Below, one piece after another: positions 3,380-7,948 of a DNA stretch of 64,000 bases (positions are counted from its first letter, which is position 1; each line of letters begins with the position of its first letter). The notes beneath the pieces were generated by a model. It saw nothing but the letters and a program-made list of their open reading frames with translations. It did not search any database and was not told the origin of the DNA. The position numbers and the translations under genes were made by a program. This DNA comes from Falsiroseomonas tokyonensis (GTDB lineage Bacteria > Pseudomonadota > Alphaproteobacteria > Acetobacterales > Acetobacteraceae): the NCBI RefSeq assembly GCF_019024325.1, contig NZ_JAFNJS010000005.1, forward strand, positions 310,001 through 374,000. The letters run 5' to 3'.

Positions 3380-3485
3380 TAAAGCACTATCCGATAACAC
3401 TCAATCAGTGTTATCGGACTTCGTGCTTTAGAAACAATAACTTCTAGAGCACGAGATCCGTCCGAGAGGACGGATCGTGCTCTAG
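3380..3485. repeat. AGAGC-type compound hairpin repeat, copy 2
   Basis: First hairpin: TAAAGCAC (3380-3387), then TCCGATAACACT, loop, AGTGTTATCGGA and GTGCTTTA (3423-3430). A 13-base spacer GAAACAATAACTT follows. Second hairpin: CTAGAGCAC (3444-3452), GATCCGTCC, loop GAGA, GGACGGATC, GTGCTCTAG (3477-3485). It is nearly identical to the copy at 33644-33749, about 30 kb away. It lies between pyruvate kinase (stop at 3501) and the secreted-protein gene, both on the minus strand. Confidence 0.9.
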
Positions 3486-3500
3486 GGCCGGCGATGGCCG

Positions 3501-5156
3501 TCACTTCACGATGGCGACTCGCAGCGCATTGGTGGTGCCCGGTGTGCCGAAGGGCACGCCGGCGGTCACCACCACCTCGTCGCCCGATTTCGCGAAGCCT
3601 TCCATGCTGGCGGCGCGGATCGCCTTGGCGACCATGTCCGTCATGGAATGCAGCTCCACCGTCGTCATGGGGTGCACGCCCCAGACCACCGCCATGCGCC
3701 GCGCCGTCTGCAGGCTGGCGGTCAGGCCGAGGATCGGGCAGCTCGGCCGTTCCCGCGCCACGCGCAGCATGGTGGATCCGGTGGAGGTGAAGGTGGCGAT
3801 CGCCTCCGCCTCGATGGTCTGCGCCACCTGGCGGGCGGCGGCGGCGATGGCGCTGGCGGAATTGCGCTCCGGCGCCGGGCGGTTCGCATCCGTCAGCTTG
3901 CGCCATTCCGGGTCCTGCTCAACGCGCGCGATGATGCGGTCCATGATGTTCACCGCCTCGAAGGGGAACTGCCCGGCGGCGGTCTCGGCGGACAGCATCA
4001 CGCAATCGGCGCCATCGAAGACCGCCGTCGCCACGTCCTGCGCCTCGGCGCGGGTGGGGGAGGGGGCGGTGATCATGCTCTCCAGCATCTGGGTCGCCAC
4101 CACCACCGGTTTGCCGAGGATGCGGCAGGCGCGGACGATCTGCTTCTGGATCAGCGGCACTTCCTCCGGCGGGCATTCCACGCCGAGGTCGCCGCGCGCC
4201 ACCATGACGCAATCGGCCCCCGCCAGGATGGCGTCGAGATTCTCGACCGCCTGCGGCTTCTCCATCTTCACCATGATCCAGGCGCGGCCGGCGGCGATCT
4301 CCTTCGCCTCGATCACATCCTCCGCCCGCTGCACGAAGGACAGGCCGATATATTCCACGCCCTGTTCCAGCACGAAGTCGAGGTCGGCGCGGTCCTTTTC
4401 CGTCAGCGCCGGGATCGGCAGCACCACGTCGGGCACGTTCACGCCCTTGCGGTCCGACAGCGGGCCGCCGACCACCACCTGGGTCTCCAGGTGATCCTCC
4501 CGCTTATGGGTCACGCGCAGGCGCAGCTTGCCGTCATCCAGCAGCAGCGTGGTGCCGATGCCAGCGGCGGCGATGATCTCGGGGTGTGGCAGCTGCACGC
4601 GGCGCACGTCGCCGGGATTGGGCGAAAGGTCGAGGCGGAAGCTCTGGCCGGTCTGCAACTGCACCCGGCCGGCCTGGAACTTTCCGACGCGCAGCTTGGG
4701 GCCCTGGACGTCGGCCAGGATGCCGATCGGGCGGCCGACCTTCTCCTCCAACGCCCGGATCGTCGCGATCCGTGCCGCGTGATCCTCGTGGCTGCCATGG
4801 CTGAAGTTCAGCCGGAAGACATCGGCGCCGGCGCGGAACAGACGCTCGATGACCTCGGGCGAGGAGGAGGCCGGGCCGAGGGTCGCGATGATCTTGGTGC
4901 GGCGCCGGCGGCGCAGCGGGGGACGGCTCGGCATAGGTCGGATGGTTCCTTCGCGACGGGGCGCTTCCGGTGGCTCCGGCACATCCGGACGGACCGAAGC
5001 GGGCGGCACGCCCAGCGCGCGGGCCACCTCGGCCACGCGATCTTCCGGCACCCGGCGCCATTGGGAGACGGCGGCGGTGGAAATGCCGAGGGCGGTTGCG
5101 ATACGGGTGACGGCGCCGCGCTGGGTCAGCAGGGCTTCGAGGGTGGGGTCGCGCAT
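3501..5156 (-). CDS. pyk: Pyruvate kinase with N-terminal YdaS/Cro-like helix-turn-helix
   Basis: One uninterrupted frame of 551 residues. From about residue 85 (RRTKIIATLGPASSS) it is a complete pyruvate kinase: substrate loop FRLNFSHGSHEDH, the metal/active-site region IMVKMEKPQAVENLD, the MVARGDLGVECP signature and a C-terminal allosteric domain. The enzyme converts phosphoenolpyruvate and ADP to pyruvate and ATP. Residues 1-60 are extra: AVTRIATALGISTAAVSQW followed by VPEDRVAEVARALGV and RPDV matches the layout of YdaS-type phage-repressor HTH domains. Pyruvate kinases are usually 470-480 residues. An internal ATG at 4934 (MPSRPP) would give the plain enzyme and has AAGGA 13 bases upstream, while the ATG at 5156 has no clear ribosome site. 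Both products are possible; the fusion is discussed in the findings. Confidence 0.93.
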   Translation of the reverse strand: MRDPTLEALLTQRGAVTRIATALGISTAAVSQWRRVPEDRVAEVARALGVPPASVRPDVPEPPEAPRREGTIRPMPSRPPLRRRRRTKIIATLGPASSSPEVIERLFRAGADVFRLNFSHGSHEDHAARIATIRALEEKVGRPIGILADVQGPKLRVGKFQAGRVQLQTGQSFRLDLSPNPGDVRRVQLPHPEIIAAAGIGTTLLLDDGKLRLRVTHKREDHLETQVVVGGPLSDRKGVNVPDVVLPIPALTEKDRADLDFVLEQGVEYIGLSFVQRAEDVIEAKEIAAGRAWIMVKMEKPQAVENLDAILAGADCVMVARGDLGVECPPEEVPLIQKQIVRACRILGKPVVVATQMLESMITAPSPTRAEAQDVATAVFDGADCVMLSAETAAGQFPFEAVNIMDRIIARVEQDPEWRKLTDANRPAPERNSASAIAAAARQVAQTIEAEAIATFTSTGSTMLRVARERPSCPILGLTASLQTARRMAVVWGVHPMTTVELHSMTDMVAKAIRAASMEGFAKSGDEVVVTAGVPFGTPGTTNALRVAIVK

Positions 5157-5159
5157 GGC

Positions 5160-5170
5160 GCTAAGTTAGC
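5160..5170. promoter_or_regulatory. Palindrome GCTAAGTTAGC at the start of the HTH-pyruvate kinase
   Basis: A perfect 5+1+5 palindrome beginning 3 bases upstream of the ATG of the HTH-pyruvate kinase, where the ribosome binding site would be. Its position and A/T-rich character in otherwise GC-rich DNA suggest an operator, possibly for the HTH encoded just inside. Binding is inferred, not shown. Confidence 0.4.
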
Positions 5171-5202
5171 ATCAATAAGCGACAGGGGCCAGATGGCGAA
5201 TT

Positions 5203-5219
5203 TTACTTAATATAAGTAA
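5203..5219. promoter_or_regulatory. Palindrome TTACTTA-ATA-TAAGTAA between pyk and the OmpA gene
   Basis: A perfect 7-bp inverted repeat with a 3-base spacer in a short A/T-rich island within the 241-bp divergent intergenic region (5157-5397). It resembles a dimeric repressor operator. It lies 47 bases upstream of the HTH-pyruvate kinase start and about 180 bases upstream of the OmpA start. The rest of the intergenic region shows only the OmpA ribosome site (CCAGGAG near 5383). Confidence 0.45.
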
Positions 5220-5397
5220 GCTATGGGGCGCGCCTTGGGGTCGCCTTCACCCACTGCGTCCTTCCTGCCACACCCCTCCCGGAAATTTTTCGTCCCTGCC
5301 ACCTTTTCCAGGGAACCCGCGTTGGGGTGGCCAGGACGCTGCTGCCGGACCCTCCACCCCCGGCGCGGAATGGCTCGTCCAGCCAGGAGAATAGGTT

Positions 5398-6528
5398 ATG
5401 AATATCCGGAATGCGCTGCTCGCGACGACCATGTTGCTGCTGCCGCTCGGTGCCGCCCAGGCCCAGCAGGTGAGCGGCATTTATATTGGCGCCGGCGCGG
5501 GCGTGAACTGGCTGCAGGACGCGAATATCAACGCGACGGGCACGCTGGCCGATACGCTGCGCGCGCGCGGCAACACCACCGGCGGCGACGTGTCCTTCGA
5601 CATGGGCTGGGTGGGCGTGGTCAGCCTGGGCTACGGCTTCGGCAACGGCCTGCGGACCGAGATCGAGGGCAGCTACCGCGAGAACGAGGTGGACACCATC
5701 AGCGGCTTCCGCGGCGCCGGCCAGGTCCGCGCCTCCGGCACCGCGCGCAGCTACGGCGTGATGGCCAATGCCCTGTATGACTTCGACATCGGCGCCAATT
5801 TCGGCGGCGTGTCCTTCATGCCGTATGTCGGCGTCGGCGCCGGCTATATCTGGCGCGAGTTCGACGGCGTCCGCGCCAATGTTCTCGGCGGCAGCGTGAA
5901 CAGCGACGGCACCGATGGCCGCTTCGCCTACCAGGCGATCGCGGGTGTCTCCATGCCGCTGACGCAGTATGCGCCGGGCCTGGCGCTGACCGCGGAATAC
6001 CGCTTCCTCGGCACGCTGGAGCATGACATCGACACCAGCTCGGGCGGTGGGTCCTTCTCCGTGGCCCGCACCGGCACGAAGTCAGAGAACTACAACCACT
6101 CCATCCTGATCGGTCTGCGCTACGCCTTCGGCCAGACCAGCCCGGCCCCGGTGGTTGCCCCGGCCCCCGCGCCGATGCCCGCCGCCGCCCCGGCGCCGGC
6201 CCGTACCTACCTGGTGTTCTTCGACTTCGATCGCGCCGACCTGACCGACCGTGCCCGCCAGATCATCGGCGATGCGGCGCAGAGCGCGACCAGCCAGCGG
6301 GTGACGCGCATCGAAGTGGCCGGCCACGCCGACCGCTCCGGCTCGCCGCAGTACAACCAGCGCCTGTCTGAGCGCCGCGCCGGCGCCGTGGCCTCCGAGC
6401 TGGAGCGCCGTGGCATCCAGCGCAACCAGATCAGCGTCCAGGCCTTCGGCGAGAGCCGCCCGCTGGTGCCGACCGCCGACGGTGTGCGCGAGCCGCAGAA
6501 CCGCCGCGTGGAAATCGTCCTGCGCTGA
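5398..6528 (+). CDS. OmpA-family outer membrane protein
   Basis: 376 residues. Signal peptide MNIRNALLATTMLLLPLGAAQA, then an eight-strand-type beta barrel (about residues 24-235, starting GIYIGAGAGVNW and ending LIGLRYAFG), a Pro/Ala hinge (APAPAPMPAAAPAPA) and an OmpA-C peptidoglycan-binding domain. The latter shows FFDFDRADLT and the NQRLSERRAGAV motif that contacts diaminopimelate. It anchors the outer membrane to the cell wall and may form a small pore. AGGAG stands a few bases before the ATG. It is divergent from pyruvate kinase and closed by a rho-independent terminator. Confidence 0.93.
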   Translation: MNIRNALLATTMLLLPLGAAQAQQVSGIYIGAGAGVNWLQDANINATGTLADTLRARGNTTGGDVSFDMGWVGVVSLGYGFGNGLRTEIEGSYRENEVDTISGFRGAGQVRASGTARSYGVMANALYDFDIGANFGGVSFMPYVGVGAGYIWREFDGVRANVLGGSVNSDGTDGRFAYQAIAGVSMPLTQYAPGLALTAEYRFLGTLEHDIDTSSGGGSFSVARTGTKSENYNHSILIGLRYAFGQTSPAPVVAPAPAPMPAAAPAPARTYLVFFDFDRADLTDRARQIIGDAAQSATSQRVTRIEVAGHADRSGSPQYNQRLSERRAGAVASELERRGIQRNQISVQAFGESRPLVPTADGVREPQNRRVEIVLR

Positions 6529-6552: not shown

Positions 6553-6590
6553 GGCCGGGGGAGCAATCCCCCGGCCTTTCTTCGTTTCAG
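6553..6590 (+). terminator. Rho-independent terminator of the OmpA gene
   Basis: Stem GGCCGGGGGA (6553-6562) and TCCCCCGGCC (6567-6576) with loop GCAA, followed by TTTCTTCGTTT. It sits between the convergent OmpA and glycerate kinase genes; the T-rich tail overlaps the last codons of the latter. Confidence 0.85.
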
Positions 6591-7870
6591 GCCACCAGCA
6601 CGGCCCGCAGGTCGTTCACATTGGTCAGGGTTGGGCCCGTGACCAGCAGATCGCCCAGCGACTGGAACAGGGCGTAGCTGTCATGCCGGCCGAGCAGCGC
6701 GCGGGGGTCCAGCCCGGCAGCGCGTGCACGGGCCAGGGTATCGGGCGTGGCGATGGCGCCCGCATTGTCCTCCGACCCGTCGATCCCGTCGGTATCCCCC
6801 ATCAGCGCCCAGATGCCCGGCGCACCAGCCAAGGCCACGGCGCAGCCGAGCAGGGATTCGCCGTTGCGCCCGCCGCGACCGCCACCCTCGGGCCCGATGG
6901 TCACCGTGGTCTCCCCGCCCGAGAGCAGGATGCAGGGGCCGGGCAGGGGGTGGCCATGGGCGCGGGCGGAGAGCGCGATGCCGGCCAGGGCCTTGCCCAG
7001 CTCCCGCGCCTCGCCTTCCAAAGCATCGCCGAGGATCAGGGGCGCGAGGCCCAGTTCGCGGCCCTTGGCGGCCGCGGCTTCCAGCGCCATGCGGGGCGTG
7101 GCGATGAAGCGGTAATCCACCTGGCCCAGGCGCGGATCGCCAGGTTTGGGCGTTTCCTCGGTCGCTGCGGCCAAATGCGCGACCACCGCCGGCGGCAGCT
7201 CCATCCGGTAATGCGCGACGAGCCCGCGCGCCTGTTCGAAGCTGGTCGGGTCCGGCACGGTGGGGCCGGAAGCGATGGCGGCGGGGTCATCCCCCGGCAC
7301 GTCCGAGATCGCCAGCGTCACCACCCGCGCCGGCGCCGCGGCCAGCGCCAACCTTCCGCCGGAAAAGGCGGATAGATGCCGGCGGATGCAGTTCATCTCG
7401 TTGATCGTGGCGCCGGAGGCGAGCAGGGCGCGGTTCACGGCCATCAGCTCGTCCAGCGTCAGCCCCGGCGCCGGCAGGGTGGTCAGCGCCGAGCCGCCGC
7501 CGGAGACCAGGAACAGCACCAGGTCGCGCTCCGTCAGCCCCGCCACCGCGTCCAGCAGGCGTTGCGCCGCTTCGGCGCCGGCGGCATCGGGCACGGGGTG
7601 GGAGGCTTCCAGCACCTCGACCCGGCTTGTGGGGTAGCCATGGCCGTAGCGGGTGACGACCAGGCCGGCCAGCGCCTGGTCGGGCCAGGCCGCCTCCACC
7701 GCCGCCGCCATCACCGCCGCCGACTTGCCGGCCCCCACCACCACCACGCGGCCGTCCCGCGGCGGCTCCGGCAGGTGGCGGGCCAGCACGATGCGCGGGT
7801 CGGCGCTTGCCACGGCGGCGGCGAAAATCTCCTGCAACGCCGCGCGGGCGGTGGCATCGGTCCAGGCCAT
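6587..7870 (-). CDS. Glycerate 2-kinase (GckA/TtuD, MOFRL family)
   Basis: 427 residues from ATG 7870 (MAWTDATARAALQEIF), preceded by GAGGGAG; an upstream in-frame start at 7921 would add an unlikely 17-residue leader. The protein has the N-terminal DUF4147 part with VVVVGAGKSAAVMA and the glycine-rich LVSGGGSAL loop, and the C-terminal MOFRL domain with ILLSGGETTVTI and GGRGGRNGE. It phosphorylates D-glycerate to 2-phosphoglycerate, feeding lower glycolysis. Older databases call this family hydroxypyruvate reductase, which is probably wrong. Together with glcF and pyk in the same 8 kb it fits a glycolate/glyoxylate salvage route (inference). Confidence 0.9.
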   Translation of the reverse strand: MAWTDATARAALQEIFAAAVASADPRIVLARHLPEPPRDGRVVVVGAGKSAAVMAAAVEAAWPDQALAGLVVTRYGHGYPTSRVEVLEASHPVPDAAGAEAAQRLLDAVAGLTERDLVLFLVSGGGSALTTLPAPGLTLDELMAVNRALLASGATINEMNCIRRHLSAFSGGRLALAAAPARVVTLAISDVPGDDPAAIASGPTVPDPTSFEQARGLVAHYRMELPPAVVAHLAAATEETPKPGDPRLGQVDYRFIATPRMALEAAAAKGRELGLAPLILGDALEGEARELGKALAGIALSARAHGHPLPGPCILLSGGETTVTIGPEGGGRGGRNGESLLGCAVALAGAPGIWALMGDTDGIDGSEDNAGAIATPDTLARARAAGLDPRALLGRHDSYALFQSLGDLLVTGPTLTNVNDLRAVLVA

Positions 7871-7948
7871 CTCGGTCTCCCTCTTGCCGCCAGTATGGCG
7901 AAGCGGGGCGGGATGGACCATCTAGCGGGGAAGTTCAGGAGGACCCCG

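Follow-up and report, generated by a model that had tools for sequence, protein, structure and literature searches.

PutA, BirA and NadR are trigger enzymes, i.e. enzymes with a built-in DNA-binding domain. In the 64,000 nucleotides of Falsiroseomonas tokyonensis (Acetobacteraceae) analyzed here, hereafter the window (contig NZ_JAFNJS010000005.1, positions 310,001 to 374,000), the pyruvate kinase (PK) gene pyk is fused to a helix-turn-helix (HTH) domain. By its domains the product, HTH-PK, resembles these proteins in uniting an enzyme and a DNA-binding regulator of its own pathway in one polypeptide. Enzyme-repressors such as PutA are known; what is new is a glycolytic enzyme, PK, that carries an HTH of the P22 Cro type, with its own gene as the predicted target and a nested, probable second start that leaves out the domain, features that set HTH-PK apart from PutA, BirA and NadR. 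We consider it likely, with a probability of about 0.7, that the gene yields HTH-PK together with a nested plain PK, and that HTH-PK acts as an autorepressor on two operators.

Other described systems share single traits with HTH-PK. In BzdR, according to its description (PMC3602430), an HTH is fused to a shikimate-kinase-like domain which is no longer enzymatically active and binds an effector. The order of parts, i.e. an N-terminal phage-type HTH, a linker and a kinase-related C-terminal domain, is the same in both proteins, but HTH-PK has a complete PK with catalytic motifs, which is the genome's sole PK match. AerR, as portrayed in PMC6199135, is a photoreceptor with long and short isoforms that acts through the transcription factor CrtJ. 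There, too, one bacterial gene gives two proteins differing at the N-terminus, in that case with different regulatory effects, but AerR is not an enzyme with an HTH of its own. Lastly, phage Cro proteins (P22 Cro, 1rzs; Xfaso 1 Cro, 3bd1) resemble the HTH in sequence and fold, and have small inverted-repeat operators at their own promoter, but are small and free-standing, whereas the HTH here is attached to an enzyme. Literature searches, conducted mostly outside subscription journals, on PKs fused to DNA-binding domains, PKs of Roseomonas, the carph-isopro domain and internal-start isoforms returned no description of such a protein.

The HTH-PK gene and its relatives

Relatives of the gene were collected in several sets. 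The fusion was found in all 15 genomes of the genus, i.e. that of the window and 14 out of 14 other members, and, in the same first set, in four out of 20 family members from other genera. In a family survey of 397 genomes, at least 67 of the matches listed, from 13 genera, start at residue 1. By scanning the GTDB species collection with HTH peptides, partly covering the same genomes as the first set, 88 relatives were obtained, 80 of which were kept (the named loci). The HTH runs in frame into a PK in all 80 of these, which come from Roseomonas, Falsiroseomonas, Neoroseomonas, Plastoroseomonas, Pararoseomonas, Belnapia, Siccirubricoccus, Humitalea, Roseococcus, Rubritepida and a few others; several are from metagenome bins, with less certain names. 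A previous, sequence-only reading of the window had proposed a real fusion and named a non-conserved upstream frame as what would speak against it; the frame is kept in 15/15 and 80/80 relatives, and the fusion is borne out.

The gene and its parts are as follows, with the ratio of nonsynonymous to synonymous substitution rates abbreviated dN/dS and Shine-Dalgarno abbreviated SD:

3501..5156, minus strand: HTH-PK gene, 551 amino acids, 59.4 kDa calculated; same fusion in 80/80 named loci
4983..5156, minus strand: Cro-type HTH domain, residues 1-58; P22_Cro above cut-off, AlphaFold2 model, low dN/dS
4917..4982, minus strand: variable linker, residues 59-80; mean identity 0.47 over 19 sequences, genus median dN/dS 0.454
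3504..4904, minus strand: pyruvate kinase, residues 85-551; Pfam PK and PK_C, TIGR01064
3501..4934, minus strand: predicted second product, plain PK, 477 amino acids, 51.4 kDa calculated; internal ATG at 4932-4934, SD-preceded start not universal

From the ATG at 5154-5156 to the stop codon at 3501-3503 the frame is open without interruption, and it is confirmed as a Cro-type HTH joined in frame to a complete PK. On the HTH, the P22_Cro family (PF14549) scores 33.7 bits with the whole protein and 40.7-41.9 bits with the N-terminus alone (41.9 bits for residues 1-60), against a gathering cut-off of 30.2, and the same family was matched by 17 out of 17 relatives at an expectation value (E) of 0.1 or better. 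YdaS_toxin (PF15943; 20.5-25.6 bits) and the carph-isopro domain (NF046037; 17.7-25.7 bits) stayed below their respective gathering and curated cut-offs of 30 and 38. A profile built from the 17 relatives matched P22 Cro and Xfaso 1 Cro in the PDB with E about 4e-6. The AlphaFold2 model of residues 1-62 has five helices and a mean predicted local distance difference test score (pLDDT) of 88.9. Foldseek returned nothing at E 0.001 or better with this model; its top match was Xfaso 1 Cro (template modeling score 0.63-0.68, E 0.04-0.06), while YdaS ranked third (E 0.13). The domain had been called YdaS/Cro-like from the sequence, of which the Cro part stands, while YdaS is to be seen as a relative only. 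In the full-length AlphaFold2 model the mean pLDDT is 63.5, which is too low to position the HTH relative to the enzyme.

The HTH is under purifying selection at the protein level, stronger than that on the PK within the genus, as judged from median dN/dS values of 0.125 and 0.181, respectively. Out of the 27 HTH residues that are invariant in 19 sequences, 24 are encoded by more than one codon. In the PK part, the barrel (377.2 bits) and PK_C (121.5 bits) are both complete and above the curated Pfam cut-offs, and there is an equivalog match to TIGR01064 (513.2 bits against a cut-off of 306.4). No other PK match was found in the genome at E 0.001. Residues R115, N117, D149, K297, E299, D323 and T355, which we take to be catalytic, are invariant in 19 out of 19 fused sequences; HTH-PK is probably an active PK.

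By its sequence, the HTH resembles phage regulators, the closest phage match being in Komagataeibacter phage phiKM1 (47.5% identity). The matching stretch (L181:1501-1677) adjoins an XRE regulator and has no annotated gene; it is possibly an overlooked cro-like gene. Related HTH domains were also seen on other bacterial proteins. At L031:979-1737 and L032:2600-3382 one is found at the N-terminus of another protein (43-44% identity over about 60 residues); the fusion partner in L031 weakly matches TorD-type chaperone models (44.1 bits against a cut-off of 132), and the same sort of domain is carried here by another non-regulator. At L035:820-2547 (minus strand) a related HTH stands in frame before a NAD(P)H-hydrate epimerase/dehydratase, in a protein of 575 amino acids, possibly another enzyme with a built-in regulator. 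A 156-amino-acid protein with a related HTH is encoded at L033:2147-2617 (minus strand) in genome G013, which has its fused PK elsewhere, and genome G012 holds a match to a similar protein. Just 3' of pyk, several strong inverted repeats are located at 3390-3485 of the window (e.g. with arms complementary at 12/12 and 11/11 positions); they may represent a terminator or a repeat element.

Paired sites at the predicted pyk promoter

Two palindromes had been pointed out near the start of the gene as possible binding sites, and both are present, at 5203-5219 and 5160-5170. As candidate operators at the gene's own start they stand. They are not two unlike palindromes, but belong to a pair of sites of the form CTTA-N7-TAAG, mostly 41 bp apart. 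The sites and the predicted promoter elements are:

5206..5220, minus strand: candidate distal operator CTTACTTATATTAAG, -64 to -50; exact CTTA-N7-TAAG
5187..5192, minus strand: weak -35-like CTGGCC; modest TTGG conservation, weak in the window itself
5165..5179, minus strand: candidate proximal operator CTTATTGATGCTAAC, -23 to -9; one mismatch, position conserved in relatives
5163..5168, minus strand: predicted -10 box TAACTT of a leaderless promoter, with the A of the ATG as first base; conserved TAAGNT

The exact word occurs once in the window, with none expected from shuffles, and at three places in the 6.16-Mb genome. The other two are C12:1173, just inside the start of a 374-amino-acid frame with a TTG start on a contig end piece, and C45:7623, within a 547-amino-acid frame. 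Over the 15 genus genomes it was found 37 times, 25 of these at pyk and at least once at pyk in each genome; in the 14 further genomes of the genus, 10 exact sites lie away from pyk. A wider regulon is not claimed, the other two exact sites in the genome notwithstanding.

The first 19 fused genes have an inverted-repeat pair near -64 and -23, with at least one exact copy in all 19. In the named loci, which were picked by peptide and independently of the operator, an exact copy between -120 and +12 was found in 79 out of 80, while none was found elsewhere in the 3.5-5.2 kb of each locus; 63 of the loci have two or more windows with no more than one mismatch, overlapping ones counted. Fused and unfused genes were compared among 116 distinct PK genes, 85 fused and 31 unfused, from which identical PKs and two short ones had been taken out. 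An exact site is located within 400 bp before the PK core in 83 out of 85 fused genes versus none of the 31 unfused genes, congeneric ones included. Likewise, 20 out of 20 near unfused relatives (groups g4, g69, g17, g72, g113 and g46, of which g4 and g69 hold fused genes too) had neither an HTH in front nor a site with at most one mismatch within 400 bp; weak tblastn HTH matches in three of them are on the opposite strand. The 3.2-kb phiKM1 locus has no such operator either, up to one mismatch allowed. This conservation points to operators that are tied to the fusion and serve its own promoter.

In a quick PK tree of the 116 genes, a single clade of fused PKs is rejected (approximately unbiased test, p-AU 0.0057). 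The distribution of fused and unfused lineages requires at least six changes inside one group with support 100, and unfused genes are also found outside this group. HTH and operator change together on the tree, with only two contrasts on well-supported branches. We read the scattered pattern as repeated joint loss of HTH and operator; transfer, or more than one gain, could produce the same pattern.

When the 85 fused genes are aligned at the ATG, a modest TTGG appears at -35 to -32, followed by CTTA at -23 to -20, with 87-95% conservation at each base, and TAAGNT at -12 to -7, with its five fixed bases at 79-99%, a spacing that suggests a sigma-70 promoter starting at the A of the ATG. Of the 85 fused genes, 16 have an SD word before the first ATG, versus 27 out of 31 unfused PK starts, which were allowed to be any in-frame start within 25 codons. 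Because SD words are scarce at the fused first ATG and the sigma-70 spacing puts the first transcribed base at the ATG, the pyk mRNA is likely leaderless. The proximal operator overlies the predicted -10 box and the spacer, and since the box is thus covered, an autorepressing enzyme is the best reading.

The target had been given as either the gene itself or the divergent OmpA gene. An ompA gene is indeed found upstream of pyk in 15 out of 15 genus loci. Since the sites persist in four out of four fused loci of other genera where no ompA lies upstream (L016-L019), pyk is the most likely target of the operators; ompA is excluded as the main target by the same loci, although a side effect on it may occur in this genus. 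The upstream gene is a DUF4147/MOFRL gene, presumably of the glycerate kinase family, in L016, L017 and L019, whereas L018 has neither this gene nor ompA. As to gene order, the OmpA-type gene of the window (5398-6528, strand opposite to pyk) lies, as in the rest of the genus, between pyk and the DUF4147/MOFRL gene, which is found at 6587-7921 beyond ompA. The latter gene directly precedes pyk in L016, L017, L019 and L020. The position of the OmpA gene may reflect a genus-specific insertion, or loss elsewhere.

A probable internal start within the linker

The linker, the least conserved part of the protein, contains the signals of a probable second start.

4947..4951, minus strand: internal SD word AAGGA, 12 nt before the internal ATG; AGGA conserved in relatives

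In 56 out of 85 fused genes the linker keeps AGGA and, 9 nt (45 genes) or 12 nt (11 genes) further on, an ATG (46 genes) or TTG (10 genes). The GGA within this word is a glycine codon preceded by eight different codons, each ending in A. Moreover, GGA makes up 58 of 93 glycine codons in the linker versus 56 of 2920 in the PK; since the sequences are related to one another, a p-value for this contrast cannot be taken as a real probability. An internal start with any four-base SD word is found in 66 out of 85 fused genes (11 out of 15 in the genus), compared to 13.9% of 3732 in-frame start codons inside the PK, and with a five-base SD word in 57 out of 85 compared to 3.0%; the linker figures count genes with at least one such start, the PK controls single starts. 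In most fused genes an SD word and a start codon are kept at the DNA level inside a variable protein stretch. The simplest interpretation would be that translation also still begins at the old pyk start and that the gene gives plain PK besides HTH-PK, i.e. it probably makes two nested products. The ATG at 4934 had been put forward as a rival to the upstream start. With its conserved SD word in most relatives, both starts are probably used, rather than 4934 alone.

Proposed autorepression and competing explanations

In the mechanism we propose, HTH-PK would be translated from the first ATG of a leaderless mRNA, and plain PK from the internal Shine-Dalgarno start. HTH-PK, as a dimer or by way of the PK tetramer, would bind the two operators, whose usual spacing of 41 bp corresponds to about four helical turns and places them on approximately the same face of the helix. 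PK is a tetramer, and one tetramer could supply both DNA-binding dimers. Bound HTH-PK would cover its own -10 region and repress its own gene, so that pyk output would fall as the amount of HTH-PK, or its DNA-binding state, rises. Repression would in this way track the amount of enzyme and perhaps its ligand state, while plain PK would dilute the HTH within tetramers.

Several observations weigh against this reading. Sites with at most one mismatch number three in the window against 1.05 expected, with 11 out of 100 shuffles reaching three, and the proximal site of the window is itself such a one-mismatch site, of a kind not rare by chance. Fewer than two sites with at most one mismatch are present in 17 of the 80 named loci, and the exact site is absent in two of the 85 fused genes, i.e. 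L088, with two one-mismatch sites, and L176, with altered ones; on the unfused side, locus L024 has only 159 bases ahead of its PK core. Promoter function alone could account for the conservation of the right half of the proximal site, though not for that of its left half or of the distal site. In the window, no promoter was found by a strict consensus scan, and the -35 element is weak; the promoter assignment therefore rests on conservation. The contrast between fused and unfused genes amounts to only two strongly supported independent pairs, which puts significance out of reach. Regarding the internal start, 19 of the 85 fused genes lack one preceded by an SD word, three of the 85 lack any internal start codon, and the 12-nt spacing in the window is longer than the commoner 9 nt. 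The 19 genes and the longer spacing would fit an alternative in which HTH-PK is an autorepressor all the same, but with an internal start that merely survives from the ancestral pyk gene and is dispensable in some genes, plain PK being made in negligible amounts. This appears unlikely, as AGGA persists behind eight different codons in a fast-changing linker, and GGA is rare elsewhere in these genes.

Other alternatives concern the HTH itself. We infer the binding of HTH-PK to the CTTA-N7-TAAG pair, and given the two further exact sites in the genome a different regulator might bind there instead, with the HTH serving e.g. to anchor PK on the chromosome or to bind a partner protein. That sites and HTH are found together in 83/85 genes and absent together in 31/31, within genera too, makes such a regulator quite improbable. 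Hardly more can be said for HTH-PK as an activator of its own promoter: the distal site does lie just upstream of the -35 region, a position that activators use, but the proximal site, which is better fixed in position, covers the -10 box, and protein bound to it should exclude RNA polymerase. The least credible alternative is that the HTH is a decaying passenger and that the real protein starts at 4934. While this start is well placed and similar to unfused PK starts, the HTH is under strong purifying selection at the protein level, its frame is open and conserved in 80/80 named loci, and ATG 4934 has no counterpart in e.g. L015 and L017.

Beyond autorepression, we tentatively suggest, with somewhat less than even odds, a self-contained flux governor, in which the balance between the two starts, together with the allosteric state of PK (as set by phosphoenolpyruvate, sugar phosphates and nucleotides), would determine how well mixed tetramers bridge the operators. 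If so, the enzyme itself would sense glycolytic flux and relay it to its own gene, with no separate regulator involved, and plain PK would be a built-in antagonist.

If autorepression by HTH-PK is true, a central glycolytic enzyme would be its own repressor, and a living case of the step reconstructed from BzdR, i.e. an active enzyme that recruited a DNA-binding domain. The fusion is spread over many species of environmental bacteria, and related genes without it serve as natural controls. Whether an enzyme reports its own flux to its own gene could here be addressed with one protein and one promoter.
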